60,616 nt of DNA, taken from positions 401,905 to 462,520 of the forward strand of contig NW_003114957.1 of assembly GCF_000003605.2 (NCBI RefSeq). Reading direction: 5' to 3'. Origin of the DNA: Saccoglossus kowalevskii. Its lineage: Eukaryota; Hemichordata; Enteropneusta; Harrimaniidae. Below are positions 7,015-60,319 of the stretch, one piece after another. Both the position numbers and the translations under genes were made by a program. Each line of letters starts with the position of its first letter. The first letter of the stretch is position 1. Under the pieces are notes generated by a model. That model saw nothing but the letters and a program-made list of their open reading frames with translations. It had not been told where the DNA came from and made no database searches.

Positions 7015-7365
7015 ACTGCTCAGTTGAAAACTTGAGATCAGAATGAAGCCAGTGGCTGTTTCAGTGAGTTTTTAAACATGTTCATCAAAGTAAACCCGAA
7101 AATGGTGTTTATTTCTGGACTGATAGCCGATCACACTTTCACACCTAGCCATTGTTTATGTTCACTCGTTGGCCGCGTACTCGCGGTGTGTACCGGGCAT
7201 ACCTTTGAAATACGGTGCTAATTGATGGCACTGTTTGTAATCATAGTCGGCATGCTTTTATCATTGCCGATTTTACAGCTGTTTAAAACTTCGCACATTT
7301 ATGAATAAAAACAAACAGACTCATGCACAAAGATGTACTATGATTTTGGGAGCCATGGTGATACC

Positions 7366-13817: not shown

Positions 13818-14984
13818 TTATACTGTGTTTGTGCAATATGAACGTGTTCTGTCGATGGTGACATTGCCTTTCTTATAAGTACGAGAAGGTACTCTGTAGG
13901 AGCATCGTTTGAATGACGATAAAAGTGTGTCTTCCGTGGTTGACGAATAACACCTTGAACGCTTCGATGACGTTGTGGTCATCACAATCCTCTTGTTCGG
14001 AGAACTCACATGGAAGTGTTTCTTTTCACGGCTTCGACAAAGAAGAGCTAGATTTCTTCTGAAATTCTCCCCAGCGTAAGTATAAATAATTGGGTTCAAG
14101 CAACTGTTGGCGTAGCTCAGACACAGACTAAAGTAGAATGCGATGAGAAATGGCATGGTGATATTATAATTATTGAATCTTTCAAAAAGTCGAAGGATGT
14201 GTACGACCCAAAACGGCAACCAACACACGATGAACAACAAGACAACGAGAAGCACCATGATGGTTACTCGATGCGATCTGTGTGGCCTTTTGTTTAGTAT
14301 GTTGTCACGGCAGTTGAGTTGAGTGAGGTGTATAACGATGCTTGCATAACAGACAGAGATAATAGCGAGTGGAACGCAGAAACCTGTGACGAAACCGTAT
14401 TGGATGAATACGCTCTGTGGCATCCATTCAGGTGCTGCCACCTCGCAGAGCGTGATACCGTAGAACTCTATCGTGACGGCACTCACCCAGAGAGGTACTG
14501 TAACAAGGAAAGCTAGGACCCAGATCAAAACACAGGTCATCCGCGCCGCTTTTATTGTACGATATTTCCTAGACCTCAAACCATGGACTACTGCTAAATA
14601 TCGGTCAAACGATAGTGCCACGAGGGTAAAAATGCCTGCAAACATATTCAAACCATCAACACCGTGCACTAGTTTACAAACAGCCTCGCCCATTATCCAA
14701 TTGCTACCAGAGTTTGTGTATGCAAGAAACGGTAACATGACTACGAACAAGAAATCCGCCGAGGCCAAGTTAAGAATATAAACGTTGGCAACTGTTTTGA
14801 TTTTTGACCGTCGCAGTAACACGTAAATAACCAGAGCGTTGCCGATCAGTCCAGAGAAGCAGATGATACCGAAGATAACTGGAAGAATGGTGTTGAACAG
14901 CAGTGGGGATACTTGCCCAGCAATTCCAGGAATGTAATACGATCCGGTACTTTCGTTGAACGTGCTGTTGCCGCCTGTAACCAT
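13818..14984 (-). CDS. Somatostatin/opioid/allatostatin-C receptor-like GPCR (single exon)
   Basis: This is a complete 388-residue class A receptor in one exon. The N-terminus has two N-glycosylation sequons (N6-S-T, N10-E-S). Seven hydrophobic segments follow, with the expected landmarks: GN in TM1 (N49), LASAD in TM2 (D77), the C103-C180 disulfide pair, DRY at 127-129, CWLPFW at 254-259 and NPIIY at 297-301. TM3 contains V-D-G-L-N-M-F. D110 in that motif is the aspartate that binds the basic group of somatostatin and opioid peptides, and TM7 has L-S-Y-A-N-S-C. Together these place it in the somatostatin/opioid/allatostatin-C group rather than among amine or chemokine receptors. Members usually couple to Gi/o; this is family knowledge, not seen here. 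The C-tail has Cys316 near the membrane and many Ser/Thr. Ligand and exact subfamily remain open; it could be one of a local expansion of orphan receptors. Confidence 0.9.
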   Translation of the reverse strand: MVTGGNSTFNESTGSYYIPGIAGQVSPLLFNTILPVIFGIICFSGLIGNALVIYVLLRRSKIKTVANVYILNLASADFLFVVMLPFLAYTNSGSNWIMGEAVCKLVHGVDGLNMFAGIFTLVALSFDRYLAVVHGLRSRKYRTIKAARMTCVLIWVLAFLVTVPLWVSAVTIEFYGITLCEVAAPEWMPQSVFIQYGFVTGFCVPLAIISVCYASIVIHLTQLNCRDNILNKRPHRSHRVTIMVLLVVLLFIVCWLPFWVVHILRLFERFNNYNITMPFLIAFYFSLCLSYANSCLNPIIYTYAGENFRRNLALLCRSREKKHFHVSSPNKRIVMTTTSSKRSRCYSSTTEDTLLSSFKRCSYRVPSRTYKKGNVTIDRTRSYCTNTV

Positions 14985-17900
14985 GGTAAATCTAGTTCGT
15001 AAAACTTGCAGATTTGTAGTCTCGCGTGCGTTGTTGTATTATATAAATGCACAATGTGATCGAGTAATGTTGAAACTAATACCGCTACGTACACAGCGCA
15101 TCTAGGAGTGTGGATGACAACGCAGTGGGTGCTCTTATTAACTTGACGTGTGCTATGAAGTAAATTATATCTAAACTAACACAAACAAAATGATTAAAGG
15201 TCAAAGTACCTGTAAACGAACGCATAAATCTCGGAATGCGCTGAATGCAAGTATATGCTTGTATAAACAATACAGCTCCTTGAACTACTTCCTTTGTGAA
15301 TAGCCTCTGATATGCACATATTTGCACAAGAATTTAAAACATCTTTCAGTTGTATCTTGGTGTCATCAGATTCATTTGATTATTCTGAGATATATCAAAA
15401 ATTAATATACAGTGTATTACTATACATATATAAATAATTATATTTTGTGATTTCCCTTAGAATACACGGGTCTCATCTGAATTGGATGTTTATTTAGACG
15501 GCAGTAGAACACAGAGCAACCTAACTACGTCATTATACACGCAGAACGCGATGCGCGGGCATTATAAATTAAATCAACTACCTCATACATTCTGGTAATT
15601 TTCGAGATAGCCTCGAATTTTGCATATACGCCTGCACATAATTCTTCATTCTAATCAAAGAATATATCATCCCTCATTTGAGCTATTCAGTTGTGTAACA
15701 CATTGTTGCCATGACAATCTAACTGAAACATAGTCTATACGATATATGAATAAACAACAGGAAAAGGTAGCTTTCTTTAAATCCTGACTATTACTTCTTT
15801 TGGTGAAAGTTACTAAAAATTCTGAAAGATTATTTTAAGTGAATCCTTGTTGTTTTGTAGGATCATATTTTAATATACTATATATTGGATTCCCAGGCAG
15901 AGCTTTGACCTTACACTCGCAGATCTCGCGGGATCTTACTCAATGTTTACATGAGCAGTACAATTCTGAATTTGTGTATTGAAAACCACATAGACACAGA
16001 CGTACAATAAAATTATATTGAGTATTTGTTAGTTTGATATCGAATATCATTTTAGGACTATTAATGATACCGATTAACGAGATCACGTGGCACCAACGCT
16101 GGAGTGCAATTAATACAATTATTCTTGTCTCTGGTCATATTACATTTTTATTATGAATCACCATCGTTATTGTACGCCCAGAAGCAACGATCACGTCATT
16201 CATTCATTACCTTGGCGACAGTAGAAAAAAATCATACACCTCAATGATATGTGGCGTTCAGATGGGGGATAATTACCGAGACGTCACGATTTCCGCCGAT
16301 TCATATTGATTTAGCATTCTCATTAATCGTTATACCTAGAAATGTAAGAATACAAGATCCATCAACGTCCGTAATGCACCATTTGTAGGAGTGTGGTGCG
16401 CCTGATAGTAGATCTGATTACGTCAACAACTTTTAACCTGGTTCCAAGTCGGTTTATGATTGCGCTGTACACGTCAGTCGGAAATTTCCCTGCAATGCGG
16501 TGGATTATTAGACAGATATTTAGCGTTGATTTCAGTGATTATTGCACAACTGGTTACGAGCGAGGCAGATGATTGATTACCTACTCGGACAAAACTATCA
16601 CGTTATAGTTAATTTGAGAATCTTAATCTTAATTTGAGAATGCATAACACTAGATGAAATACGCCGTGTGAATACATCTTTCAGTAGCTAGACCCAGAAG
16701 AATAAAATAATAGCATGTTCTTTTCCTAGCTTGTCTTGTAATACATATACTAATAATATTAATGTGTTGTATCTGTTGACTTATATTTTGATGGTATCCA
16801 GAATGCAATGTGTCAATTACTACCAACATAGACAGCGAAGCACAAGGGAAAGACGTGTGTTTTTGATTCGCACAGCATTTACTTGCTTCACTTCCTATGT
16901 TATCAGTTACTACGTAGATGATGCTGCTGCAAATATAACAGAAACAACATAATAGTGAATATTGGCTGTACGTGATGACTGAAAATAATTTGTAATCATT
17001 ATAAATTGATTGTTCCCGTAGCTGTTACTTAGTATGCATTGTTAACTGTTGGTCAGTATGACTTATTCGTGGCCCCTAGGCATATCATCCTGATACATTG
17101 ATAGTGAATTTTGTACCTCAGACAGTACAAGGAAGTGTGAATTGTTGGTGGTTATACACCAGTCCTGTTGCCAAATGATGATACTACATTACAGACAGGT
17201 GCTTAGAGTGAGCCTGAAATGAGTGTATTGGCGTCGCACAATTCACTATTCTATCTGCTCAATAAGTCATTAGCAGCTATTTACCGATGCGCTTAAGGTC
17301 GGTCTCCATCACTACTCAGAAATAATTTGTGCGTTGAAGCAAATAACCCGTTCGTCAATATTGAATGTAGCTAGTAACATGCATGTCTCACTTTTCTAAC
17401 TGCGTAAACTACAATGTAAATAATGATGAAAGATTAATTGATTAGATGTCCTTCGTCCCACCAATTGTCTCAGTGACACGTGTTGAAACTTCGCGAAAAC
17501 AGTTCATTGCATATCAACAGTTAAATAAATCAAATGTTGGTTCTTAACGTTCGTACCATGGCACAAATGTACGAACACGATATAAGAGTTCTGTTGTTGT
17601 TGTTTTTTATCTGAACGACTTTTAATTAACTAACATTCAAACAAATCTGATCCATAGTTCAAGCATTGAAAACAAGAACTAATTAGTCTCGATGTATACT
17701 TCATTTTTCGTTCATCTTCAATATTCAAAGAAAGTCCGATGTTTTTCATGTGATAAGGGGATGATTTGTGTTAACGAAATAAATATTAAACTGATAGTTG
17801 AATCTCTGTAACATAATAACACTTGAAATTCACGTTAAAAATATTTACCCAGAGGAAATATTTTAATATAAATTTTTTGTGACTGTCAGTAGTTGTCAAG

Positions 17901-26920: not shown

Positions 26921-27893
26921 CTATAGTGTCCAATGCTTTGGTGAACAGTTGTAAATTCTGAAGCCTGTGGTCAGATGTATCAAACAAAGGAGAACAAAGA
27001 CGACATTTCTGCAATAAATTCGAGCTTGTATAACTATAAAATACTTTCAACAAAGCCGATACGAGGTTTAAACAAAAAAAGAGAAATTGAAAATATGAAT
27101 AGTTGAATAAAATATAATACAGACTTCGTAGAAATGAACGGCATGAAAAACATGAACAAAACAGTTAAAATAGCAAAACAATCTACAAAAGAAATTTTCT
27201 ATTTTAACTGACTTGTTCATGTTTTTCATGAAACATAAAAACAGAAAATGGAAATATGAAAAAGATGAATGAAAATATACCGTCATAAACTTGTAGCGCT
27301 AATCGCTTTTTGAACGCACCAAACACTGATTGCAAAACTAGGTACCTCGCAAAGAAACCCAGAATGAATCCAAACTTTAATGATTTTTTGTTTTAATTGT
27401 GAAATACACATTTATGTATTAAGCCAACTGGCATCATAAATACAAATGCAATAAATAAACGTGGGTGCATACATCAGGACGACGGTAAACAGAACCAAGA
27501 TTATCATAGATCGATCGTTACGGAAGGGGAAAGTGTTATACACAAATTAACATATATAGTTGTACATGCTGCGTCTATTGGTTACATCTGGAATTTGCTA
27601 AAGTTAGCAATACCGAATAGCGTGACCGGTGTATACGTACAATAACACTTTTCACGTTTTGCCAGGAGTTTGAAGTCAGCATCTCAGACTGTATTTGCCA
27701 CCTTGATAAAACGACTATTATCGCAGAGAGGAAATCAATTAAATGCATATGACTTTCTAATTTTGTGTATTTTCTAACATTTCAGATATGATCTGGTGCT
27801 AACACAGTTTTAGAATTAAATCCGGGACATACCTTGCTATGGAATAACCAACGTACATGATCGCAGCCAAAATTGGTTTCACAAAGAGAATCC
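26921..27893. other. Upstream region of the 760-residue protein gene
   Basis: AT-rich with no exon seen. It contains an inverted phrase, aaaaacatgaacaaaacagtt at about 27147-27168 against aactgacttgttcatgtttttc at 27205-27226, which could form a hairpin. Any promoter of the gene starting at 27894 should lie here. Confidence 0.35.
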
Positions 27894-30176
27894 ATGTCAG
27901 TGTTGGGGCAAGCTACAAGCGGCACGTATCCCGAATCGGGTGGCGTAACCATCGCAGGTGTAGATTATATAGACGGCAAAGAATATCTGCCGAGAGCAAA
28001 TGACATACTGAAACACACGATGAAGTACGAAACCGACATTTCAAAAAGACGAGAAATGCAGGCGTCCATGGTGACGTACACGGATCGGACCCGTCAACTG
28101 CTGAAGGAAAGGGGGTTGTACGACCAGGGCGATGGCGATGTCGTAAACTCGACAAAACAGACGCATCGGGTTGAAAGCAATCGGAGAGTATTCATGTCGT
28201 CAATAACCGCGAGCGACATGCACAATTCACTCTCCTTAACGAGTAAATACTTTTCTACCAAAACGCATCTCAATAGGAAGGGTATTAATGCGGGAATGCC
28301 GTCATATAGCGGTAATAACGCGCGCTTACCAAATATATTATCAGCTAGTGATCCAACAGGCTATAGTTTTGATATCGTCAGGCGAGGTGTGTCTAGGTTA
28401 CCTGCTGTAGACGAAGGAGAATCAAATAGTCCGCCGGAAATCATTTCTGGTGTGAATACAAATAAAACAGAAAGAAAGGCAAAAAAAATTAGGACAAGAC
28501 TAGTATATTTGAAAGATGAGTCACAAACTAAAGCGGTGCGCAAGGCGAAAAAGAAGTTATTAAACTGGGTGCGTGAAGACGAGGGGACACTCCGAATAAA
28601 TGTCCAACTTCCGACTGTTGAATATGACCCAGAATCGCCCGCGCGGTCGCTGATAAGCGAACTCAGTATTTATCAGTGTGAATCAAATAAAGTTAGTGGC
28701 TGTAGTAGTGATATCCAGTGCATTATGTGTAAGTTGGAGAATTGCAACGACATGGTTCGGGAACATGACGGAGAAGGGGACGCACAGAATGACGAACTGC
28801 GACAGAACGAAAATAAAGAACAGGATGATAGACAGGTCCCTATGTTTGATTCAGATAGACTGGTAGATGATCCAGAAGAAAGGCTTAGCGATGATGCTGT
28901 CGACAAAAATACTGGTACATCACCAGAGTCGAGCGATGAAGGACATAACAAACATACGACCACATCATTGAAAAAGAAAATGAAAAAGAAGGCACGAGCT
29001 TCAATTATTAGGAAAACTAAATTGGCAGGCACGTTACCAGAATCCACGGCTACGTATAGAAGCGAGGTTCGGAGGAAACGCGCAGAAGATAAAAGACTGA
29101 TTCGGCATTATGAAAATCATGATCGGCCTAAATTGGCAGCGTTGCCAATAAAAAATGGTACAGGAATCCTCGATATTGACACTGAATCATATCACAGGTC
29201 TTATAAAATAATTCATCGAGACCCCCCGTCAGTTAAAAAAATCAAAACGTGGTTAGAGAGCAACAATTTAAGTAACTCGTCTCCAGGGGACGACGATAAC
29301 GGTGACGTGTTGAGAACGCTGTATCGAAGTGGAGGGACACTACAGGACGATAACACAAACCATGGTTCAGAGGCTATAAAACAACGATCGCGACTATCAC
29401 TGAAAGCAGATTATGTGAGCAACAGCACAGCGCTGCCTCAAAATCGAGATAAAACAACTCTTGGTGAAAGTCACAGGATACTTGCCAAGAAAAAAGATCA
29501 AGAACGTTCATCGCGATACACTGTGATGTACGACACCAGCTCCAATCCATCTAAATACCCAGGTGGCACGATCACCTTATCGGATGTAACATCCTTCGTG
29601 GACGAATCATTCATGCACTCAACCGTGCTGGAGGATAAGCGATCAAAAGGGAGAGTACGAAAGCTGGGTGGAAGAAACGGCGAAATGCTATGTATCCATG
29701 GAAACAAAACAGGGAGTTGTCACAACTGTCAAGAGATTGAAGAAGCCGAGGTGATGCTTGGGAAACAAATCGAGAATTTCACGAAGTCGAACGTCCAATG
29801 GAGTGTTGTGTCAGATGGTATGGACAGGTCAAGATGGGGGCGTAGTCGACTGGTTAAGGGACCGCAAGAGGGAGACGCACCAGTTTTGAAACATAGTGCA
29901 GACAAAACTCAAGGCGACACAGCGGAACGCTCTCTAGCTGTCCCGAGCATTGCTTCTGGCGTAGAATTCACCAATGATGCATCGATGAAGTCGTATCTTG
30001 AAGGCCTCAATGATGATGAGTCTGTTTTATCAGCATTTACAATGGGAAAACGAAGAGTACGATTCACGGAGCATGTAGAAGTACACGAGATTGCCCTTTA
30101 CAGACGTGATCCAAATAAACCTTTACGGAAGCCACGAAGAGGAAAGAAAAAGAAAGCTCTTCCAGTGCACATTTAA
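27894..30176 (+). CDS. Uncharacterised lysine-rich, mostly disordered protein with RVxF motif (paralogue of the gene at 34355-35743)
   Basis: Single open frame of 760 residues. I chose the ATG at 27894 as the first Met codon; the frame stays open upstream only to a TGA at 27858. Residues 48-75 contain D-I-S-K-R-R-E-M-Q-A-S-M-V-T-Y-T-D-R-T-R, closely matching residues 9-27 of the convergent gene. The middle is acidic and Lys/Ser-rich with KKMKKKARA-type basic stretches. C600, H602, C609 and C612 (CIHGNKTGSCHNC) could form a small zinc knuckle. Near the C-terminus K-R-R-V-R-F (RVRF at 721-724) fits the RVxF docking motif for protein phosphatase 1, and the tail (RKPRRGKKKKA) resembles a nuclear localisation signal. 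I do not recognise the family. An AATAAA lies at 30426-30431. A phosphatase-targeting or chromatin/cytoskeletal scaffold role is possible, but this is inference. Confidence 0.75.
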   Translation: MSVLGQATSGTYPESGGVTIAGVDYIDGKEYLPRANDILKHTMKYETDISKRREMQASMVTYTDRTRQLLKERGLYDQGDGDVVNSTKQTHRVESNRRVFMSSITASDMHNSLSLTSKYFSTKTHLNRKGINAGMPSYSGNNARLPNILSASDPTGYSFDIVRRGVSRLPAVDEGESNSPPEIISGVNTNKTERKAKKIRTRLVYLKDESQTKAVRKAKKKLLNWVREDEGTLRINVQLPTVEYDPESPARSLISELSIYQCESNKVSGCSSDIQCIMCKLENCNDMVREHDGEGDAQNDELRQNENKEQDDRQVPMFDSDRLVDDPEERLSDDAVDKNTGTSPESSDEGHNKHTTTSLKKKMKKKARASIIRKTKLAGTLPESTATYRSEVRRKRAEDKRLIRHYENHDRPKLAALPIKNGTGILDIDTESYHRSYKIIHRDPPSVKKIKTWLESNNLSNSSPGDDDNGDVLRTLYRSGGTLQDDNTNHGSEAIKQRSRLSLKADYVSNSTALPQNRDKTTLGESHRILAKKKDQERSSRYTVMYDTSSNPSKYPGGTITLSDVTSFVDESFMHSTVLEDKRSKGRVRKLGGRNGEMLCIHGNKTGSCHNCQEIEEAEVMLGKQIENFTKSNVQWSVVSDGMDRSRWGRSRLVKGPQEGDAPVLKHSADKTQGDTAERSLAVPSIASGVEFTNDASMKSYLEGLNDDESVLSAFTMGKRRVRFTEHVEVHEIALYRRDPNKPLRKPRRGKKKKALPVHI

Positions 30177-34354: not shown

Positions 34355-35743
34355 TCATGTCATGTCAAGCTCATTCTTTGATGACAATCTCGAATTTGCG
34401 GATATAGGAAGTTCCACAGGTTCAACTGATTTCAGCTCCACGACTATGGAGGAAGGGGTGAACGTTCTCCCATCCTTGTTCGGCGTGTCCGAACTCCGCG
34501 GCGACGGATTGCCATTCTCCGCTCCATTTGAGCGGGACCCGTCGCTCCCCGATTCTCCGTCGCGAATCCCCGTTAATAATGATTCTTCGTTACTCGGGGG
34601 GCTTTCGTTTGAGCCACTATCCTTAGTCTTGCTGGATATTTCTTGCGAGATCTCTTCATCCAAATCATATTCTTCATCACTGCCTTCGCTACTGCTATCA
34701 CTATCTCGGTTACTCACATAACCTTTAGGAAGAACAAATTTCACTTTCTTTTTAGCTTTTTTCTTTGCTGCCGCTGCCTCACGTTCAATCTTTTTTCTGG
34801 CATTTCGCTCCATTAATGCCTTGATTTCGTCGGCATAAGCCCCGCTAAGCTGTTTTTCAGCTGGCGATTCCATGTTTCTCGTGACAAGTTTTTCTAATCC
34901 GATTTCAATCGGCCATTCAGGTATGTAAATATCGCCCTCTGGTGTTCGTTTGTACATTGGTTTTAAATTGCTACCTGGTTGTCGCTCAGGAATGTAGCTT
35001 TTCAGTTCTTGCTCCATCAGTTCAGACCAAAGAAACTGTTTTTTGATGGGGAATTTCTTGGCATCGTCTTTTCCTGAAGCTCCCTTGCGTTTTTTCTTCT
35101 TAGCGCGTCTTTTCCTCAGCTGTTTATGACTTATTCTTGGCGGGGTAGGCGGTCTTTTCGTATTCTTCTTTGAATAAAAGTTTCTTTTTTTACCAAAATT
35201 GAGCATCGGGGAGTTCTGCAAGGACATCGGTTTAACTACTCTAGGGGTAGAATATTGTGAGTCGACATCGAAGTCTGGATAAGGCAAAATGTCGACGATT
35301 TCAATACGCGAACCGCCGCGGTTCCGTTGTCGCCTAATGCTGTTGGACACTGATGTCATTGAATTAAAGAGTTCCGACATGCTGAATGACTGTGACGACT
35401 TCTGGTCGATGGCGGGAAGAAATGGCTTCCGCCAAATCTCTGGGTGTGTCCGTGAATCGGGTAGATCGGTTCTCAGGGTACACGTGCTTGCTGATCGATA
35501 CAGTGGTTCAATCCTTACATCCGGGTCCGGCGACTCAGATGGTATCTCTTCGGACCGGCTAACGCGGTTTAAATTGGCAACTTTAAAACTGTATTGAAAG
35601 GCGTCGTCGTTCACCAGGGTAGGTGAACGAACTGAAGATAAGAGTCTTTGGTGAGAAATCTCACGCGCACGGTCTGTGTACGCCAACATTGATTTCTGAA
35701 TGTCTTTCTTCGTCACATTAATTTCTGCCATGGTAGTAGCCAT
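34355..35743 (-). CDS. Uncharacterised lysine-rich protein, paralogue of the 760-residue protein, with KVKF motif
   Basis: Intact 462-residue frame starting MATTMAEINV. Residues 9-27 contain N-V-T-K-K-D-I-Q-K-S-M-L-A-Y-T-D-R-A-R, the same segment found near the start of the convergent gene at 27894-30176. That shared motif, both products being basic and low-complexity, and the absence of introns in either suggest an old local duplication. Residues 209-221 form a strongly basic stretch. Residues 237-290 hold a more ordered segment (F-L-W-S-E-L-M-E-Q-E-L, then Y-I-P-E-W-P-I-E-I-G-L). Residues 305-332 are an Ala/Lys-rich predicted helix leading into K-K-V-K-F (KVKF at 333-336), an RVxF-type PP1-docking motif, and an acidic Ser-rich tail follows. 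Function unknown; the two genes point at each other with 4.2 kb between their stops. Confidence 0.75.
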   Translation of the reverse strand: MATTMAEINVTKKDIQKSMLAYTDRAREISHQRLLSSVRSPTLVNDDAFQYSFKVANLNRVSRSEEIPSESPDPDVRIEPLYRSASTCTLRTDLPDSRTHPEIWRKPFLPAIDQKSSQSFSMSELFNSMTSVSNSIRRQRNRGGSRIEIVDILPYPDFDVDSQYSTPRVVKPMSLQNSPMLNFGKKRNFYSKKNTKRPPTPPRISHKQLRKRRAKKKKRKGASGKDDAKKFPIKKQFLWSELMEQELKSYIPERQPGSNLKPMYKRTPEGDIYIPEWPIEIGLEKLVTRNMESPAEKQLSGAYADEIKALMERNARKKIEREAAAAKKKAKKKVKFVLPKGYVSNRDSDSSSEGSDEEYDLDEEISQEISSKTKDSGSNESPPSNEESLLTGIRDGESGSDGSRSNGAENGNPSPRSSDTPNKDGRTFTPSSIVVELKSVEPVELPISANSRLSSKNELDMT

Positions 35744-38700
35744 AAATACAGGTTTATATTGGAAATATGTCGATCCGCCGCAGACGAACCCGATGTGTAG
35801 TTATTAACAGTAAGATAGGCGGCTACATCTCATTGCTGGCGTCAGACTAACATGTGCGTTTTTCACACACCACAGCCACAGTATAAAGTCCGTTAACAGT
35901 TACTAAGGCAGTCTGAAGAGAGATAAAAACGAAGGAGCTATATCAGTTATTGTTAATGCAGTATTTGTTAATTTAATAATGACATGATACTGTGATCGAA
36001 ACGGCTAAGGGGACAAATATGCTTACTAATAATAATTGAGGGTGGGAATAGTGCATATACTAAGTATATCTCAATACAATGACGAGCAATGCATCGCCAC
36101 TTCCATGACAATCCTTACAGACTGACACGCACGATCTTGCATTCGGTTACTTCCATTAGACAACCACTGCCCTTTAAGTTGAAAACAAGTTTTGAAGGAG
36201 CTCCCCTGCCTTAATCATAATTACCCTAAATTATTATAAAATATACTCCTCGACAAATCGTTTACACGAACAAGAAATACACCGGGATCGAAATGCAAAC
36301 GTTCACGTTCTATAGTAGGCCAATACGGGCAAGGATATCTCGACCAGACAGGAAATGGCAGTTATGCTGCAAAGGTCAATAGCAAATGCATTACAACGAG
36401 CAAAGATCTGTTCGGTGTCGACAGAACTTAACGACGGTAGATGGTTAAACGATTTAATTATTTGCATACGCCTCTAATTATGTTAGTTAGACTCCCTGCT
36501 GTGAAGAGAATATGCTTATGAGTATCGACGGATACTCATAAGTCCACATAAAAATAATATTTGCCGTCACATTAGTTGACGTTTCCACATCAAAATATTA
36601 TCAAAGACCGAGATGAATTACATCTTTGCCAACGTAGGGTATTATTATTATCACCAAACAAAAAGGGGTGACACATTTAGTTGTGTCTGTCTAGGTTATA
36701 AAAAAAGAATAATTGAAAATAATGAAAAAAGAGATTACCCCATCATAACGTTTGTTTAGAGTGATTTTCGGAGAGCGTCGATCATCGTACCTCTGTATTG
36801 CCATACGGCTATAGGGAACATCTGTAGATTTCACGATAAAGTTATGTGTTAATGGGTTGTGTGCTCAATCGCAATACTAGCGAAAACGCTTGCCTTGCTT
36901 TGACAGTAATCAGCCAAACTCCCGTTTCACTGGCGATTATCACAAAAACAGTGAGCACATTCAGTCGTGTAATAGGGTTTTAAGTCCAGAGAAACAAAAA
37001 TGTCCTGGTCGATTTTTCGTGCCAGCGTTTGCAATCCGAGTCCGATAAGCCCATGCAAGTAGTCAAGAGAAGACGTGAACAAAAAAAAAACGACTGACTA
37101 GTGTTGCCAAGGGCAGCAAGCACGAGTCAATATTGTTCCAGTATCGACCCGCCAGTGTTTGAACGACACGAGTCAGTATATAGCACGGACGTCAACTGTA
37201 CATACATTCCCAGCCCATATATCGATGTAGACAATTATTTGCCAGTCACCGACAGACTGGTTTTCGTGTGGAATGAAAAATGTCGCTATCCAGCAGAAAA
37301 GTGAATTCACCTTCACAACATTCCACTAATTCTTAATACACTTAATCGACGGCTGAATTAGATAATTATTGTTATCGTCAAATAATATTGATTAATTTAT
37401 TAATATATTCAGTGTCATTAAATGATGTCATATGCATCCCGGTCAATCACCAAATATCAGTTATGGCTGTCACATGGTTAATGATATACGGATAAAAAAA
37501 AAATGGCGTAAGGCGAAGACCCGAATTTCAAATATTAACAGTTATTCAACGCTCCTGAACCACCATCTGAATAAATCGACACTAACACAGTACCGATACA
37601 TTGTTGCACTGACAGGCTGCGTTATATGATTCGTTGAAAAAGGTTATCGTGAAAGTGACATTGTTCTCGCCAATATTCAGTGCATTTGAAATACGTAAAT
37701 CTAATATTTAATGCTGTCACTGAGTAACAATTTAGGAAACTGTGATTATTTAGGGTATAAAGGGCGATATACTGTCCATTATTGCGTGATAAAAAAAAAA
37801 CCAACAGCGTCATATTGGCTTCAGGGAAAGGTCTAGACGCGATGTGCTCGCCTGCGCCTCATACACTATCTTACATGATTGTACAATATTAAAGAACGTG
37901 ACAAAGATGGAGGAGACGCAGTTACGGCCATTATCACGCAATAATGTGTAGCGCGGAGTCCTTTATTTCAATTACTGATAATACATTTGAACTCGCTAGT
38001 ACAAGTCATTCAGTGGTCAGTTTTCGAACCTTGGTTTCAAAATGTAGTTATAACAATTCATAAGTTGATTATACAAAAATATGTGATGAATGAAAACAAA
38101 AACACGTGTACACATTTATGCTAACAAAATCAGTTGAATGTGACTAGCCAGCCTGAGTGCAAACTCCTAGGTGTGGTTGACGTATTGTAAGTCAGATAGT
38201 GCACTTGTGTTGTGCATTCGTTCACATATTTGATCCCAACTCGGGCGCATGGTTCTCGTGTCAGCCATGTATGTAACGAATTACTGTAGTTGTTTGGATA
38301 TAAGATTTTTGAAAACAGACCACCTGATCTACTTACATACAAACCAGTCCGCAGAGACATTTCTCCGATCCGCAACAGCCTATATACGAAAATACGCACA
38401 TAGTGCGTACGCTGACTCGATTAACTAGTCAACCACCCAAACATCTCCACGCTCGGCCGCCAACGAATCATAACAATCAGCTGTATGCGGCCGAGGCATC
38501 CAAAAACTCAACCCTTTTGCCAATCGGCCACCTCGAATTTCACAATTATTCTATATCTCCCACTGCAATGTACACCAATACAGCATTTACCACATTTGTT
38601 AAAATATGTAGTTTCCATAAATTCAAAAAAACAGCCACTGAAAATGCATCAGTGTTTTAGTGGAAAATTAATTTTGCTGCAAACTGTAGTCAGACGCAGT

Positions 38701-49706: not shown

Positions 49707-50137
49707 TTAATATAGTTGCTCCAGCGATTTTGTAAATGTCATCATGTCGGTTAAATCCACCAGTTGGAAATATGTCTCTAGGTAGTGATGGAAGAACTCA
49801 GGAGCCTGAAATGATATAATACGATTTGTGTAAAGTAAAAATGAAGCTATCTTTCTGGATCGCACAGTATTTTGTAATTGATCGAATTATATAACATACC
49901 TCTCGCCGAAGTTCTTTCAAGTACAACAGCTGCTCTCCCGAAGTGATTTTTTCCAGTTTCGAACTGAAACATAAACATAAATTACTGAAAATACTTTACG
50001 GGTATGTCATTTTACAGAAATCATATCACTGTTTGATGAAAATATCAGCTAATTGGCTACAACGAAGAAAGCATGTCACCGCCACCGGGTTGTTAGCTGG
50101 ATGAATAATGAGCCTAAACATCAGTCACGTGCTTACC
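49707..50137 (-). other. C-terminal SAM-like domain of the TIR gene (end of exon 11, exons 12 and 13)
   Basis: Residues 1159-1228 start W-T-K-E-N-V-E-K-W-I-A-E-N-D-L, the usual opening of a SAM domain. They continue S-G-E-Q-L-L-Y-L-K-E-L and end D-M-M-T-F-T-K-S-L-E-Q-L-Y. SAM domains multimerise, as in SARM1. Module 1 has no equivalent; it was lost or never present at the fusion point. The middle part is shorter than a canonical SAM, so I call it SAM-like. Introns occupy most of this interval. Confidence 0.55.
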
Positions 50138-53100
50138 GGTTCAGATCATTTTCAGCTATCCACTTTTCGACGTTCTCCTTTGTCCACATGCGGGCGCTAT
50201 TCGTCGATGAGGATGTTACGTCACCACTCCCCGCTCCCGACACACTGGTGGCGTTCACCATTTTCTCAGTGATTCTGGTCTTTGTTCCCCGTTTTGTCCG
50301 AACACCATTTGTCACTTTTCCCCGCGTGCCGAGCTCTTTCATCATAGCTTGTAACGAAGATTCGAAAACGTCCTCGCCAAGAAACTGGAAGTAAAACTTT
50401 GTACCAAGTATAGCTCCCAACCAGCCATCCGGGTGATAATCGGATCGTACTTTTATAGGAACGATCTTTTTACGACATTGGAAAGCATATTCAGCCTCTA
50501 TGGAAAATAAGTTGAAAATTGATATATTGATTGAAATGCAATATGTTGACGAATTACCTATTATTATCTTGAACGAGGTGGCAAAAGAGAAGACGTCAAA
50601 CGTGTGCGCACATGGTGATGCACGTAACCACTCAAAATAACGTTGAGACTACATACCAGTTCGACAATTTGGACTGTCTTTATAGTTCTGTGTCATACAG
50701 ACGACGATGGCAACTGCATTTTCAACGGCATCCGCCATAGCCGATAAAGTAGACCCGCCCATTTGTTCGATGTCCATCCATACGTTGTATCCCTCCGCAC
50801 GCAGCCGATCTTTTATACGTTTCATCAAATTCTGGTTATCCCATTGGTAGCTGATCATCACGTGACCAACCTCGTCCCTGGCATCAGTTTTGAAGATGTG
50901 TTCCATTTCATTGCTTGATCTTTCTACGGATGCGAATGCAAGGAATAATTGTACGCACAGCAAGTAATTACATTAACATATTCGTATACTACTTCATTGA
51001 AAATGAATATCTCCCGATAAAGGTAGATATTAACATATTTGCGATGCATATTTTCATGTTTACCTTGTTGGGCATCTTGGTCCTTTAACACCCATAGTGC
51101 GCCCTCACATGCCCTTTTCAGTTGTGTATTATTGCTGCTGCGAAGTTGTTCCAGTTTCTCAACCAGGTGGGCATGCTTCAGTATCGTATTTTTGTTATCG
51201 TCGTTGAAAGACAATTCCCAAACTGTTTCCGTCGCCGCTAAATAAACGAAAAAGACAAGAAGAATTATTTTTATTATTCCGATTTGCGGTTTCAGTACTA
51301 ATATGCGTGGTGTTTTTGTTCGGGCGGTGGTAATTCGGGTGAGCTTATCTCACCATTGTCCATGCAGCTTATAATTTTAATTTTCGGGTCCATAAATGAG
51401 ACATACAATATGACTACATATTCTAAGTGAGACTTATCCTCAAAGAGATACCAGTGGGTGGCAGATAGAAGGAATAAAAGCCAATAACAACAACAAATTG
51501 CAAAGATATAACACAACACGAGAACAATGTAATAATTAAGTCAGATTCAGAAAGAAACGATCACTGCTGTCAAACGCCATCAGTAAAAAAAACTGGCATG
51601 ACTCAAAACTGCCCTAATTATGCTAACAATAGATTCTTTTAACCCCATTTGCACACACCAGACATGTCGGATATTTGTAGGTCATAAATACTGTTTTCTT
51701 GTTCGTATCCAGTCGTGTAAATTCGTCGTCGACTTTCTTATCTATCACAGCACTGCATTGAATGTTTTATTTGCGATACTAAAACATTCTGAACAAGTTG
51801 CATTAGTCTAGCTTCATGGCATAGGGGCGGTAAACCATTCGCGTCATGAACCACCTTCGAACAAGCCTACGTAATGAACCAGTTTTGCCGTTACTTTAGA
51901 AACTTGCGCGCTTTGGCGTAAAAACGTTTAAATTTCGTATGCGAAGAGAATATTATCCAAGCCCCGACTGATTTCTGCAACGGACGACATTTTACACGAC
52001 ATTTTTTTCACATATTTATATATTTTATATAAAAATATTCCCTCAAGCCAAAATTGGGCAACTTTGATAAATAGCCATGGAAACAAAAAAACAAAAATAA
52101 CAAAAAAACGAAGTTGCTAGGAAAACAGAACGTTGTTCCTTCCCAGTTTTAGTGTATCACGTGCACCAGTTCATTACAATAACATTACTTCCCACAACGT
52201 AGTCCGCGATAAAATTGTTCATATTTACGTTACATAAGTCAAACATTGATAAATAGCTCGGTTATCAAACAACTGCGCAAACACTTGCCATGAGTAGTTA
52301 GATGATTTACCGCAAAATTGAACGCTGCCTGTGGCAGAGGTACTATTGCGTAAAAATCAACCTATGCAAAGAAGATTGCGTAGGGAGTTGATTTCGCTAC
52401 GTAAGCGTTCGATAGCTCATCAGAACGTTGGGAACCAGGGAAACCAAATTGAACGAGCTAGAAATCACCCCCGCCCCCATCCCATTCTCGCACAGAGACC
52501 GACTGATGGCGCTGTAACTCGAAACTCGTCTGTTTGAGCGAAGAATCACGTGCACAAGAAAGTGGAATATTACGGTCTATACTGTGATATACTGCACAAA
52601 CAATATCTGGAGTAGTCTGTACTCAACACTTGACCTAATGTGAAACAATTCTGAAGCAATTATTTAATGACCAACTAACCTATTTGTTCATCCTCTTCTC
52701 CGTCCAAAATCAGGGAGCTCAGTGGTGTAAGGACGTCGGCGTTCACGATTTGCACTTTATTAGAATCGTTGATTGCGAGTCTTCTCACGCCTGTAAAACC
52801 AAATACAAACAAATGAATGGAAAATACTTGCAATTAACTGTCTTTCGACGAACAATCGATTTAACATTATTTCGAACTACAATCATTGATAAACGCCGCG
52901 GTTTGCAACCACATGACGGTATCGGCAAAACTGGGCTGTGTTTTGTGTGCACTTATTTTCAAATGTTGACTATTATTAAAGAGATGCCGAATTGTTCGAG
53001 TTAAAAATGACACCGCCCATGTTCTAGAAACTTTGCCCACTTTTACGGAACCAGGCCTAAATTATAACTCGATGTGCAATTAACCGCGACAGTTACCGAA

Positions 53101-56100
53101 CTTCGAGTTACGGGCAACATAGATTGATGTTTTATTGTTGAACGTCCGCATTTAGTAACTCGAACTTCAATTAACAGAATGGACATTTTGATTCTACTTT
53201 TTTCATAATAAAGATTTATCATATTTGAATTTATATTTAGCTTAATTGAACATAGTACAGTGCTTTGGTGTAATAACGGAGCCCCCTTCTTTTCTACTTA
53301 TATGACCCGTGAACAATTATTTCTTTCTCAGATGGAATTTTCCAGACAACTAATTTTGCATGTTTTATGCTTCCTTACCTTTAGTCAACTCTAAAGCGCT
53401 GTAACCACCGTCTAAGTGGGAAGGATGCTTGACAGCTTTAGCCAACCGACCGATGATGTAACGAATCAACTCTTCATCCGCGAAGAAACGTTCGCTTTGC
53501 TCCTCGTTCAGTGTATATGCCATGATGAAAATTATGTAAGTACGAGGGCGCTCGTCCTGGAGTCCGATCATAGGGGACAAGATTTTATCGACCACGTTTG
53601 CTTCTCGCATCATCTGACGAGATTTGGCATGGAGACAGCAGTTGTAGAGGCAGGCCAAAGTAGAACGAGTTGCACGACCAGCGATCTACAAATTGTTAAA
53701 GTGGTTAGAGGTTGGAATGATTTGAATTATATGAACTATTAGATCGTTATCATAATACGTGGACATTGTAGATATTTACACCATTTGCCTATTTCGTTAT
53801 TTCGAGTTATTGCGACCCAAACTAATTCCCGAGAACCCATTATGATATTTCCCGCAATTCGTGCATTCCTACCAATAAATATGTAAATGTGTATTAAAGA
53901 CGGTGAGTGTAGTCTAAAAACGTCAATGAATAACCTGAAGCGACAGAGTCGAAACGCAAAATACACATGGAATTCAAACGCGCTTCGTTGACTATCGCGC
54001 TATAAACTTACCGCATCCTGGGGATTGCCCAGGTATCTCAGTCCCTCGCTGTTCTGGATCTCTTGCACCAAATCAAGAAAGCCTTCTTTCAGAAGAAATT
54101 CGCAAACTTCCGAGCTGGCATCAGTGAAATTCCACATCATGGAGATGGACGTATTGAAGGGTCTCCAGTACGAATCATCAACAACCCCCTGATCATCTCT
54201 CCAACCGTGCTTTACGTTGTACCGAATCACTTTCAGTACGTACTCCAACCCATTGTGGTTCATGAAAGTTTTCAATAACACGGCTTTGTACTGTCTCCTC
54301 GCCTTTATCGACAGTTCTTTTAACGCAGAATATAAACTCGCCATGGAATATAACGGGACGCGAATGTTATCATAAGAATTAAACTCTCCTCTGGAAACAG
54401 ACGAGGTCACTTTCTCAAGACTATCCTCGAACGACTTTTGCTTTATTAAAATCTTTGCTTTTTGTTCTTCTGAAACATCAGTTAATATATCATCAAATTC
54501 GTGGGTAAAACGTGACCCCCCGCTCTTCACGTTCTGTACAAGGTTAACCACATTAATAGCCGATTTGCTTTTCTCATAATCATTAATCGCCTTCAACAGT
54601 TTTTCCGTTGTTGATTCGAAATCACCAGCAGTACTTTCAGTAAATTTGTAGTATAGTTTAGCACCTAACAGGAGACCCAGCCAACCATCAGGAGAATAGT
54701 TGTCCTCCATCATCAAGGGGATTACTTTCTTTCTTAGTTGAAACGCATATTCTGCTTCTGGTGAACGATTAAGCAGTTGGTAATTAGAGATATAGGTCAT
54801 ATATTGAAAAGAGAAGCAATCTACAAACAATAACACCAGGAAACAAAGACTACAGTAGGAATTTTCAGGGACGAAAATACTTGTTTTTAAAAAAAATCGC
54901 ATCCATGTTCAAGTTTAAGAAAAAAACACCAGCATCTTAAAATAAAATAAACTCACCCCAAATAGGTGAAAAACTGGTAGTTTATGTTCTACCCTCAATT
55001 TCTAAATGACCAGCTCCTAGTGTTACTAAGACCGGATGTTTGGGTGCAAGGCTGGCATATAAAATCGTGTTATCGTTGTACAACAGAATATAATATAAGT
55101 ACATGTAGTGTACATAGTTCATTGATGACGTCCAACTCAATTAAAACATATATACACGTATTCAAATACTAACCCATCCGACAGTTTGCACTTTCTTTGT
55201 ATTTCTCAGAGATAGCGATGAGTACGATTTCGGATTGCTCCACGGCATCAGCCATTGCGGACAGCGTCGACCCTTCCATGTTTTCCACATCGACCCATAC
55301 TTTAATTCCACCCTTTTTAAGATGTTTAACTATATCGAGGATCGTTGCCTGGCAACCCCATTGATAACTTATCATCACGTGTTCGTCTTTGGTGTCAAGC
55401 TTACATTCAGACATTTTTGAATCTAGCAAATAGTAAAAATTTTGCAAATAAAAAAAAAAACTATATAATAATATAGTACACTGCAGTAGTACCATGCAAT
55501 TCATAATATTACTATTTAGGGCCGGAATACAGAAGAGAAATGATGACGGCGTAATTTCGAAGTCAAACAAATAGTAATATGTTGGTGATGATCGGACCGT
55601 CTTCATAGTAGCCGTGTGGAAACCTTGACTTTCATCATGGGATACAAATATAAATTTTCACTTCGTTTTGTTGGCAAACTTATGTGACTCGATATTCATG
55701 TTCGCATTATAATTTCTTCTGTTTTATCGGTACGTATCAGTAATGCTGAGAGTTTACTATGCTTACCTCTGTTCTTTAAATTCCATAATGTACCCTCTGC
55801 CGCCTTTCTCACTTTGCTGTTATCGTGTTTCTGTAGGGTCTCAAGTAATTCTACTGCGCCCTCTGTTTGCAGAATGATCGCTTGGTTTTCTTCGTTAAAC
55901 GAGAGGTGTCTAAGCGCCTCAATGGCGGCTGTCAATTTCAAGAGAAATGCATTTATTAATTATAATAGTAATATAGCGTGTTAAAAAGTAAAAGACAAAA
56001 TATCTAAAACAAAGGTGAAGACAACAACAATGATAACGACAAAAACAATGACAACAACACAAATAACAACAATAACAACAATAACAACTTACAACTACCA

Positions 56101-58031
56101 ACTACCTTCCATGCAGCAACAAAAATGGCGGAGACATTAACGACGATGGCCCGGGAAATACAGTAAGACGTCACGTTGTTGCCGTGTAGAAATGCTAAAA
56201 TGTATCAACATGGTATTTGTATATCGCACCAAAACACTATATCGAAGTTGGATTGACATACGATGGTTCAAAACATATGGCTAACATAATTGCTCTCATC
56301 TTTGGTTCACTGTCTACAGGGGCTTGTGACCAGTGTTGCACATACTTTCACGGTTACTAGCTAGATCACATTGCATGCAAGATATGAATGTTGGACAAAG
56401 AACCAACAAATTTACCGATTTTCTCGTCTATCAACTTGTCCCCTTTTACGATGCCTATTAACAGCGGCACGGCACCTGCCTTCACGATACTCGTCTTGTT
56501 GACATCGTTGACAGCCAGTCGGCCAATCACTGGAAGGGAAATACGGTAATAAATGGCCTCTCAGTTATTGGAAAAAGTTAGAAATAAAGGGAAGAATGTC
56601 ACAGGGAATCACTACAAGTCTGCATGTTTTCGTTTTTTCAAGTTGAAAACAATACAACGGCAAATCAACAGGTTCAATGCAGCACCAAGGAGTAGCAAGA
56701 GGCGATCTACTTTCAACGTTTCAACTTTTGGACTGAAGTAGTCGTTTTTCGAAATATACCACTTTTTAACTGAAGTTTCCATGTTTATAAAACTATGCAT
56801 AACCGATGAGCATTATAAAACAGATTGGAGTAAATATACAACATTGCAACAATAAGAAGATAATGTTTGTATAAAATTTAAATCAAGCTTAAAAGAACAA
56901 TAACACAGGAACTTACGAACACAAAGTTCATGAACTGAGAATCCACGACTCCTACGATGTTTCTGTTTGGTGGCTTTCTCAACATGTTTAACGATGTTGT
57001 TAATGATGCTTTGATCGTGAAATAACTTTTCACTCTGCTCTTCGTTGACAAGATACGCGGGTATAAGAACGAAATAGATGTCCAGGTCATCGAGGCCTGC
57101 TGTCATCAAAGGGGACATCACATCCAGGATTCGGGACTGTTTCACAACGCCTCGTGAAGCCTCGTGAAAGGAACAGTTTGCAATGACAGCTAAACAAGAT
57201 TTCAGGATTTTCTTCGTAGCCTGGGAAATAAATAAATAACTATATCACGTCATTGTGATTGACAATGTGATTGGTTAGGAATAAATTAAGAGTTAAACTC
57301 ACGTTATCCATTGCGTACGTCATGGAGAACTGGTACGATGTGCTGAGTACCTCTTGGATCAGTTCAATTACGCCCTCATCGACAATCTCTTTCGCAAGAC
57401 GGTCACTCGCGTCAGAGAAGTTCCAGAAAATCTGCGCACCATTGTAGAAAACATTATAATATATGGGAATGACTTGTCCTTGTTCGTCCCTCCAGCCGTG
57501 TTGATGGGCCGCACGCATGATATCTATAATTATGGTAATCGATTTGCTTTCCACCATATAGAGCGACAGACTTTTTCGATAATATTTCCTTTTCATTAGG
57601 CTCTTTTTATTTAAGAAGTACAGCCCGTTTATCATTTGCAGTGATTTTTTAACGATTTCCGATGACGGATCGGCTTCGGTCTGAATGATGTCAATATTGT
57701 GTTGACAAATCTGCTTGCTTGTACGTAACTTCGCTTCCACTTCTTCGTCTGTTTCTGCAACAACTTTGAATTCCGACCTCTCTGCTTCTTCCTTCTGGCG
57801 TCCGGGGTATATGTTGTGATTTTTACTAGATTTGGTTGGACTCATCTCTAGGGACAATTTTGAACTTTGACATTGAGAAAGGCCCGTTGTCTTCAAATCC
57901 CCGTCGTTTTCATCTGGTGAAACAAGGTCATTGCCAACGTCTTGTTTGTACCTGGCATCCAGCAAAGTGTTTAGCTGATTAGTATGGCGCCCTCCCACGA
58001 CGCTTGACACTGTGCTTGGTTTTGAACCCAT
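49707..58031 (-). CDS. Tandem ARM-TIR-ARM-TIR-SAM protein, 13 exons, predicted N-myristoylated
   Basis: Minus-strand exons: 58031-57303, 57220-56917, 56529-56416, 55928-55767, 55422-55174, 54757-54012, 53685-53379, 52790-52680, 51237-51064, 50923-50657, 50497-50137, 49963-49900, 49805-49707. All introns are GT-AG and all phases join, giving 3687 bases or 1228 residues plus a stop. The start MGSKPS fits the N-myristoylation consensus. Residues 130-436 are alpha-helical ARM/HEAT-like repeats, 451-555 the first TIR, 660-965 a second ARM block, 986-1090 the second TIR, and 1159-1228 a SAM-like domain. Each TIR has H-V-M-I-S-Y-Q-W, then G-S-T-L-S-A-M-A-D-A-V-E, then E-A-E-Y-A-F-Q. E520 and E1055 align with the catalytic Glu of SARM1-type NADases. 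ARM plus TIR plus SAM recalls SARM1, which has one set only. Signalling or NAD+ cleavage is inferred. An upstream untranslated exon (acceptor near 58046) is possible. Confidence 0.85.
50657..50923 (-). CDS. Exon 10 of the TIR gene: N-terminal part of TIR domain 2
   Basis: Residues 966-1054. Contains H-V-M-I-S-Y-Q-W-D-N, then Y-N-V-W-M-D-I-E-Q-M-G-G-S-T-L-S-A-M-A-D, and ends in S-P-N-C-R-T. Its donor splits the codon for E1055 at the same position and phase as exon 5. The distance from the His of H-V-M-I-S-Y to this Glu is 69 residues in both TIR copies. Confidence 0.9.
54012..54757 (-). CDS. Exon 6 of the TIR gene: fusion exon joining module 1 to module 2
   Basis: Residues 520-768. One uninterrupted 249-codon exon starts with the C-terminal part of TIR 1 (E-A-E-Y-A-F-Q-L-R-K-K) and runs through a charged linker (about 560-650). 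It ends in the start of the second ARM block with H-G-W-R-D-D-Q-G (703-710) and W-N-F-T-D-A-S (728-734). The equivalent sequences in exon 1 are H-G-W-R-D-E-Q-G (178-185) and W-N-F-S-D-A-S (203-209), at the same 25-residue spacing. This exon is the physical proof that the two modules belong to one protein. Confidence 0.9.
55174..55422 (-). CDS. Exon 5 of the TIR gene: N-terminal part of TIR domain 1
   Basis: Residues 437-519. Contains H-V-M-I-S-Y-Q-W (strand A region), I-K-V-W-V-D-V-E-N-M-E-G-S-T-L (BB-loop region) and Y-K-E-S-A-N-C-R-M. It ends one base into the codon for E520, which is completed by the next exon. Flanked by a ctag acceptor and a G|GTTAGT donor. The rest of the domain, including Y-S-P-D-G-W-L-G, opens exon 6. 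Confidence 0.9.
56031..56092. repeat. (AAC)n-type microsatellite in intron 3 of the TIR gene
   Basis: Runs of aacaacaat, acaacaac and aataacaac repeat imperfectly for about 60 bases. It lies between exons 3 and 4 and has no coding value. Confidence 0.8.
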
Positions 58032-58396
58032 TATTGTGGTAGGCTGTGCATATTACTCCTATAATATAAACAGAAATATTTATCCAGCAAATATACATTG
58101 TGATTATGATACTAAGTCCCCGACACAGTCCATGTGCACAGAGCTACACACAGTAGGGAGGGAGGTCGTAAATCGGCAAAATTCATAGGACGAGCTACTG
58201 AGACCACGGACATTCAAATCACCACACATTTTTTGACTGCGCCTCGGTGAGTAATTATCACATCGGGGCGACAAATATACCCCTCAGTTGCAGTTAATAA
58301 ATCTTTAGTGTGTGACAGACATTTTAGTTTAGTTTCTGTTGTGTTCTAAAACTACTCGACTAGTATATTTTAAAACAAGCAGCCTGTCGGCTGAGA
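58032..58396. other. Upstream region of the TIR gene
   Basis: No exon is certain. On the minus strand atgcacag|CCTACC, about 15 bases before the ATG, could be the acceptor of a 5' untranslated intron. A CCTGCCTCG|GTGAGT near 59811-59825 would be a suitable donor for such an exon. Unproven. Confidence 0.3.
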
Positions 58397-59262
58397 TAGC
58401 TCCGCTGTTAGCAATGCGCATGGCAATTAAAGAACAGAAGATATCATTAGAAAATGAACAAATCTGAGAGAGGTCCACATGTAGTACCTATATGTATAAT
58501 ATATCAAAGCAATTGGACTTGCGGTTTTCAACAAGAAGTCGAAAATATCACTTTTTACCAAAAATTACAAAAATATTCATCAAAATTAGAGAATTAAAGA
58601 TATCATTACAAAATGAACAAACCTGAGAGAGGTCCACATGTAGTACCTATATATGTAATATCAAAGTAATTGGACTTGCGGTTTTCAACAAAAAGTCGAA
58701 AATATCACTTTTTACCAAAAATTACAAAAATATTCATCAAAATTAGAGAATTAAAGATATCATTACAAAATGAACAAATGAGAGAGGTCCACATGTAGTA
58801 CCTATATATGTAATATCAAAGTAATTGGACTTGCGGTTTTCAACTAGAAGTCGAAAATATCACTTTTTACCAAAAATTCAAAAATATTCACCGAAATTAG
58901 AGAATTAAAGATATCATTACAAAATGAACAAATCTGAGAGAGGTCCACATGTAGTACCTATATATGTAATATCAAAGCAATTGGACTTGCGGTTTTCAAC
59001 AAGAAGTCGAAAATATCATTTTTTACCAAAAATCACAAAAATATTCACCAAAATTAGAGAATTGAAGATATCATCATGAAATGAACAAATCTGAGAGAGG
59101 TCTACCCAAGGTACATATACACCAAGTATCAAAGCATTCAGGCTTGTAGTTTTCAAGAAGAAGTCGAAAAAGTAAAACATTGACACGGACGACGGACGAC
59201 GGACGACGACGGACAATCACTCATATGATAAGTTCCGCTCGACAAAGTCGACAGCGGAGCTA
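58397..59262. mobile_element. 866-bp non-autonomous element with 12-bp inverted termini and internal tandem repeats
   Basis: The left end tagctccgctgt (58397-58408) and right end acagcggagcta (59251-59262) are exact reverse complements. Inside are five head-to-tail copies of a unit starting near 58426, 58593, 58750, 58904 and 59061 (spacings 167, 157, 154 and 157). Each unit contains gatatcatta, aaatgaacaaa, gagagaggtccacatgtag, ttggacttgcggttttcaac and aaaatattca. The fifth is the most diverged. A (gacggac)n run (59190-59213) and an imperfect hairpin, ccgctcgac / gtcgacagcgg, precede the right end. The plan (arms, roughly 160-bp tandem core, terminal hairpin) recalls the Helitron-related 'pearl' elements of molluscs, but I infer this from layout only. 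Confidence 0.75.
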
Positions 59263-60248: not shown

Positions 60249-60319
60249 GCATCGGTGGTTCAGTGGTAGAATTCTCGCCTGCCACGCGGGAGGCCCGGGT
60301 TCGATTCCCGGCCGATGCA
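60249..60319 (+). tRNA. tRNA-Gly (anticodon GCC)
   Basis: A 71-base intronless tRNA. The acceptor stem GCATCGG pairs with CCGATGC and is followed by discriminator A. The A box is tggttcagtggtaga and the B box ggttcgattcc. The anticodon stem is ctcgc/gcggg with loop ctgccac, and the anticodon is at 60281-60283. It matches the highly conserved animal glycine tRNA, which makes it very likely functional. CCA is not encoded, as expected for a nuclear gene. Confidence 0.97.

Follow-up and report, generated by a model that had tools for sequence, protein, structure and literature searches.

The window analysed here is a stretch of 60,616 nucleotides of the hemichordate Saccoglossus kowalevskii (contig NW_003114957.1 of an assembly of 572 Mb in 4830 contigs), and all positions below are window positions unless a locus is named. 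On its minus strand lies a gene whose predicted protein has the domain order ARM1-TIR1-ARM2-TIR2-SAM-like in 1228 residues. Its parts are the following.

49707..58031, minus strand: whole coding gene, 13 exons, 1228 amino acids, single open frame
58031-57303, 57220-56917, 56529-56416, 55928-55767, 55422-55174, minus strand: exons 1-5, independent rebuild
54757-54012, 53685-53379, 52790-52680, 51237-51064, minus strand: exons 6-9, independent rebuild
50923-50657, 50497-50137, 49963-49900, 49805-49707, minus strand: exons 10-13, independent rebuild
55767..57740, minus strand: ARM1, about residues 98-436, from the 3' part of exon 1 to exon 4; aligns with ARM2
54585..55422, minus strand: TIR1, about residues 449-577, exon 5 and the 5' part of exon 6; Pfam TIR_2
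54012..54757, minus strand: exon 6, one unbroken frame from the C-terminus of TIR1 through the linker into ARM2
54429..54584, minus strand: inter-module linker, residues 578-629, the last of which overlap ARM2 as aligned (from residue 614)
51064..54476, minus strand: ARM2, about residues 614-965, from the 3' part of exon 6 to exon 9; aligns with ARM1
50316..50923, minus strand: TIR2, about residues 983-1115, exon 10 and the 5' part of exon 11; Pfam TIR_2
49710..50195, minus strand: SAM-like domain, about residues 1156-1228, from the 3' part of exon 11 to exon 13; paralog tails and PDB profile

The original prediction, a model of 13 exons and 1228 residues, was rebuilt independently and stands. 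All 12 introns have GT-AG ends, the phases are compatible, and the 3687-nt coding sequence translates into 1228 residues with its only stop at the end; the span from 49707 to 58031 contains no N. Seven codons separate the start ATG from an in-frame stop upstream (the stop-to-stop frame begins at 58052). The N-terminus, MGSKPST (58011-58031), fits what we take to be an N-myristoylation pattern, which is weak evidence since the pattern is common. A 157-bp tandem repeat (58425-59170; 4.7 copies, 92% matches) starts about 0.4 kb upstream of the ATG.

What domains does the predicted protein contain? A domain search of the translated model, proposed along with the original prediction, gave two TIR_2 stretches and ARM families in Pfam. 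For the whole protein TIR_2 scored 2.4e-44 (two stretches); among the ARM families, Arm (3e-5) and ARMC9_ARM (2.2e-6) came out above their cut-offs, and ARM_ARMC5 (2e-10) fell below its own. Exon 5 starts at residue 437, with an exon match for TIR1 listed at C843:457079-457282; exon 10 starts at residue 966, and the best TIR_2 stretch for TIR2 spans residues 987-1099. Taken alone, neither ARM region passed a Pfam cut-off, the best values being ARM_ARMC5 1.1e-9 and Arm 7e-4 for ARM1, and ARMC9_ARM 2.3e-4 and Arm 0.018 for ARM2. The ARM part of the module profile matched Vac8 in the PDB at 1.3e-15. A structure model of exon 6 reached a mean pLDDT of 61.9; its residues 1-89, where half of the TIR is absent, lie under 50, and the ARM2 helices alone are usable (block pLDDT 65-87).

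The C-terminal tail by itself stayed under every Pfam cut-off, SAM_PNT being its best SAM family (E 0.076), and the search with the whole protein returned neither a SAM match outside this tail nor a Death domain match at E<=1. When the tail is aligned with those of three complete paralogs from the same genome (C1913a, C1913b and C4441, described below), 12 columns are invariant, including W5, W13, G30 and an APEFF block. For SAM_2 the tail of C1913a scores 21.4, over the cut-off of 20.5, and the tails of C1913b and C4441 fall short of it, while the best PDB match to the tail profile is Liprin-beta-1 (whole-sequence E 4.7e-5). The putative SAM-like C-terminus named in the original prediction holds, by homology to the paralogs, because of these homologous tails (one of them over the SAM_2 cut-off), the APEFF block and the Liprin-beta-1 match.

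The two modules are similar far beyond chance. Module 1 and module 2 are identical at 177 of 497 positions (36%, E 9e-102), which bears out the earlier claim of two complete ARM-TIR modules. Each contains five introns, and the phases are 0, 1, 1, 1 and 1 in both. Four of the five fall at common alignment columns (155, 257, 296 and 443) and the fifth falls at 350/354, within a gapped stretch; in the numbering of module 2 the positions are 156, 258, 295, 353 and 442. Since dS between the modules is saturated (NG86 returned no value), no age can be given.

At least 43 TIR_2 matches were found in the assembly, two of them in the double-module gene. Module 2, used as a genome query, gave 39 matches (12 in its own gene and 27 elsewhere), and module 1 gave 33. 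Read from these sequences, the genome holds at least three single-module ARM-TIR-SAM genes, two in tandem at C1913 (C1913a and C1913b) and one at C4441; in all three, which were read to the end, a stop follows directly past the SAM. Three other paralogs were read in part, C255 and C166 as ARM and TIR pieces and C563 as a TIR; for C255, the following 8.5 kb that were read did not yield the C-terminal TIR exon. No second module occurs in the read stretches of these six paralogs, of which C255, C166 and C563 are incomplete. Relatives of the ARM region, 25-31% identical, lie at C2502, C1808, C4067, C993, C2917 (two), C2921 and C3272, on contigs without a listed TIR_2. Two of these eight were read; in C2502 the ARM frame ends in a stop and contains an Arm repeat (2.3e-7), and relatives of this type are perhaps an ARM-only sister family. 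An open frame of 9244 amino acids at C4202 was set aside, because most of the stretch that was read is one run of N.

Is this one gene or two? The strongest sequence support for the single gene of the original prediction is exon 6, which is open from the end of TIR1 through the linker into ARM2. This 746-bp exon contains no stop in the coding frame, and the other two frames have 21 and 22. Likewise, the 52-residue linker is free of stops in its own frame, and the other frames have 4 and 7. Among 1949 overlapping intron windows of linker length, 124 are open and 23 match or exceed the codon score of the linker; that score, 0.076, is at the low end for the gene (mean 0.226, minimum 0.011). An alternative is that two adjacent genes, an ARM-TIR gene followed by an ARM-TIR-SAM gene, were misjoined in the model or are both read through. 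There is a precedent at C1913, where two single-module genes stand in tandem and the first has its SAM and stop ahead of the second. In addition, exon 6 contains an AATAAA and several introns an AATAAA or ATTAAA, and a transcript that entered intron 6 would run for three codons before a stop, but it would by then already include the start of ARM2. Against this alternative, a single stop-free exon holds both the end of TIR1 and the start of ARM2, and the first of the two genes would have neither a stop in exon 6 nor a SAM, unlike all three complete paralogs; we regard it as quite improbable. The AATAAA and ATTAAA motifs, which are found in exons as well as introns and also past the end of the gene, decide nothing about one gene or two. 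It is more improbable still, to the point of being barely credible, that the assembly joined two loci in error: it is a draft in 4830 contigs, but the gene span is free of N, the joint would lie within an open exon, and a frame is rarely kept across a chance joint. A single gene is much the best reading of the sequence, and we infer one mRNA with all 13 exons.

How did the double module arise? In module-2 numbering, the introns of C1913a and C1913b are at 270, 322, 408 and 442, those of C4441 at 322, 408 and 442, those of C255 at 272, 355 and 395 (its exon for position 442 was not found) and those of C166 at 384 and 442. Unbroken matches show introns 258 and 295 to be absent in all five paralogs that cover them (C1913a, C1913b, C4441, C255 and C166, the last by a weak match, E 0.088). 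Both C1913b and C4441 lack intron 156, and so does C1913a as judged from a match that starts just three residues ahead of it. Similarly, intron 353 is absent in C1913a, C1913b, C4441 and C166, and C255 has a near one at 355. Intron 442 is present in four of the five covering paralogs (C563 reads through) and is not special to the double-module gene. Among the paralogs covered, introns 258 and 295, and probably 156, therefore look exclusive to the two modules of this gene. Because the layouts of the paralogs differ from the layout common to both modules, duplication of one module is favoured, and the intron positions point to one module having been copied within this lineage.

In protein trees, a sister relation of the two modules finds neither support nor rejection (p-AU 0.24 for 8 rows and 0.59 for 6 rows). 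C4441 and both C1913 genes form a clade at 94/98 and 97/99 that excludes both modules, and the end branch of module 1 is longer than that of module 2 (with 8 rows, 1.01 for module 1 and 0.49 for module 2; with 6 rows, 1.24 and 0.50). The same gene could have been produced by a deletion between two diverged tandem ARM-TIR-SAM genes in which the first SAM and the second start were lost. A tandem pair exists at C1913; the modules are about as distant from each other (40% identity) as from the three complete paralogs (33-41%); and the trees leave the order open, with C255 beside module 1 at 76/86 in the 8-row tree and no settled order in the 6-row tree, where C166 has a long branch. On the other hand, the modules have intron positions in common that no covering paralog shows, so any two such tandem genes would themselves have been copies of one another, made after the layout arose. 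We consider the deletion rather unlikely and keep the copying of a single module as the preferred reading.

How does this protein compare with known ones? In SARM1 the order is ARM-SAM-SAM-TIR, with two SAMs between ARM and TIR. SARM1 and the double-module protein both combine ARM, SAM and TIR and have Glu at the catalytic position. The distinction that the original prediction drew between the two was sound, as domain order and SAM number differ: the double-module protein has one SAM-like domain, placed after TIR2, and two TIR_2 stretches, neither of them C-terminal, whereas SARM1 is described with a single C-terminal TIR (PMC7075850). No SARM1 chain is found among the best 60 of 71 PDB matches to the module profile. 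The nearer relatives are C1913a, C1913b and C4441, which share with the double-module gene the order ARM, TIR, SAM, TIRs that are 50-54% identical and an intron at the CRx/EAEY codon; they differ from it in having, in the stretches read, one module each, a stop after the SAM and their other introns elsewhere. As judged from these sequence comparisons, the double-module protein looks like a duplicated variation on the invertebrate ARM-TIR-SAM proteins, not on SARM1. ARM-TIR proteins are listed for oyster (PMC4346834) and for Aplysia (11 in the table and 10 in the text of PMC9334734), and an amphioxus TIR-SAM gene is reported with cDNA (PMC2575513); compared by description, none of these is presented as a double ARM-TIR module in the accessible parts of those sources.

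Several known chains carry two TIRs. A clam protein of ecTIR-DC family 6 is described as combining two TIRs and a Death domain with ARM-like motifs (PMC6836662); it resembles the double-module protein in its two TIRs and its ARM-like region and differs in its Death domain, and the available portion of the description gives no second ARM. C4186, in the present genome, has a Death domain (Pfam 4.3e-11, from two hand-joined exon pieces) followed by two TIR starts, an order of Death-TIR-TIR that resembles the description of family 6 as far as it is accessible. It has two TIRs like the double-module gene, but its TIRs are directly consecutive and come with a Death domain. Likewise, a mollusc Toll-2 with tandem TIRs, reported to give stronger induction of antimicrobial peptides (PMC4929906), has an extra TIR in the chain, but it is a Toll receptor whose tandem TIRs, in the portion of the report available, are C-terminal and have no ARM between them. 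Dictyostelium TirE is mentioned with two diverged tandem TIRs in a 2026 preprint (PMC13142454), which also describes uncharacterised TIR clades that are exclusive to eukaryotes and common in non-model animals. ARM-TIR proteins and two-TIR chains are therefore already in print, and two TIRs per chain are not new. Neither the full order of the double-module protein nor the orders ARM-TIR-ARM and TIR-ARM-TIR turned up in the literature searched, a body that lies outside the main ecTIR-DC classification (Gerdol et al. 2017).

Are both modules likely to be functional? TIR1 and TIR2 each keep 25 of the 26 TIR columns that are invariant in five or more paralogs. TIR identity to C1913a, C1913b and C4441 is 50, 50 and 51% for module 1 and 53, 50 and 54% for module 2; for module 1 and module 2 respectively it is 62 and 62% to C255, 44 and 42% to C166, and 40 and 47% to C563. 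The corresponding ARM identities to C1913a, C1913b and C4441 are 21, 26 and 25% for module 1 and 33, 32 and 31% for module 2, with 35 and 35% to C255 and 18 and 22% to C166. Both TIRs thus look about equally constrained, and ARM1 looks to have drifted further than ARM2 from the C1913/C4441 type.

The Glu that follows CRx is present in all seven TIRs that have this column, TIR1 and TIR2 included (C255 is without the exon). The best PDB matches to the TIR profile are the CRISPR-associated TIR Cat1 (5.7e-4), RPS4 (2e-3) and a TIR named as an ADP-ribosyl cyclase (6e-3), and among the five printed PDB alignments, which are with proteins other than SARM1, the Glu of both TIRs lines up with that of Cat1, RPS4 and 7xoz. 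These observations speak against a serious rival to an enzymatic role, in which the TIRs would be non-enzymatic adaptors and the protein would scaffold signalling with Toll-type receptors. That rival has several points on its side. Most studied animal TIRs are described as scaffolds (PMC13142454). The same Glu is reported in more than 90% of TLR1/2/6/10-type TIRs, and its conservation is said not to track activity (PMC7075850), so a conserved Glu is no proof of catalysis. Finally, the TIRs of SARM1 match the profile weakly, at E 0.015 and above, behind Cat1, RPS4 and others. We give the adaptor role an appreciable chance, short of even. Searches for prokaryotic or viral TIR kin used a pattern from a two-row TIR alignment, of limited reach, and none of the resulting 47 stretches in genome contigs and 71 in viral contigs was confirmed. 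The pattern CRxEAEYAF gave no stretch in viral contigs and seven in genome contigs, none of which lay in a TIR frame when checked with tblastn and by eye; the window itself gave none because an intron splits the motif. With TIR2 as query, tblastn returned one weak plasmid TIR (E 1e-3, 46% covered) and no phage match.

An in-gene tandem duplication of the ARM-TIR part, together with two regulatory inputs and one output, is the joint explanation that we judge somewhat better than an even bet. We propose that an invertebrate ARM-TIR-SAM protein gained a tandem copy of its ARM-TIR part, fused in frame through exon 6, which would have left one SAM at the C-terminus. The protein would be intracellular, self-inhibited and part of innate immunity. 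By analogy with SARM1, each ARM solenoid would restrain its own TIR and sense on its behalf, the SAM would gather several chains and, once the restraint was released, the TIRs of neighbouring chains would pack and either cleave NAD+ or recruit TIR partners. The models for ARM restraint, SAM assembly and TIR packing are SARM1 and the plant TIRs; a review reports that TIR NADase activity takes two or more TIRs close together and that the ARMs of SARM1 keep its TIRs apart (PMC9153377).

The original prediction had taken a chain with two TIRs to be pre-dimerised, and this part of it finds no support. TIR1 and TIR2 are separated by about 400 residues and the entire ARM2, and because ARM2 sits between them the chain alone makes no TIR dimer. 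A lowered activation threshold from two TIRs in one chain is possible by analogy. That both TIRs are intact while ARM1 has drifted further suggests that two regulatory inputs feed one output, in preference to a TIR dimer built into the chain. A more specific version, which we think unlikely, is a covalently doubled sensor-effector in which a diverged ARM1 and a conservative ARM2 would each gate an intact TIR and share the SAM, so as to act as an AND or OR gate or to make module 1 the built-in partner of module 2. A genome that has this protein, with its two ARM-TIR units and single SAM, as well as single-unit relatives offers a ready comparison of copy number and sensor divergence with activation threshold; an inactive protein, or two separate transcripts, would make the gene an ordinary duplicate.

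Elsewhere in the window, two overlapping open frames on the minus strand (5393-7071) have the look of a pogo/Tigger-type transposase by eye, and a single 406-residue open frame on the minus strand (13818-15038) has that of a rhodopsin-type GPCR. Two frames on opposite strands, at 27861-30176 (771 amino acids) and 34355-35800 (481 amino acids), have similar N-terminal stretches (TYTDRTRQ and AYTDRARE) and are possibly related to each other. A tRNA-Gly (GCC) gene lies at 60249-60319 on the plus strand.
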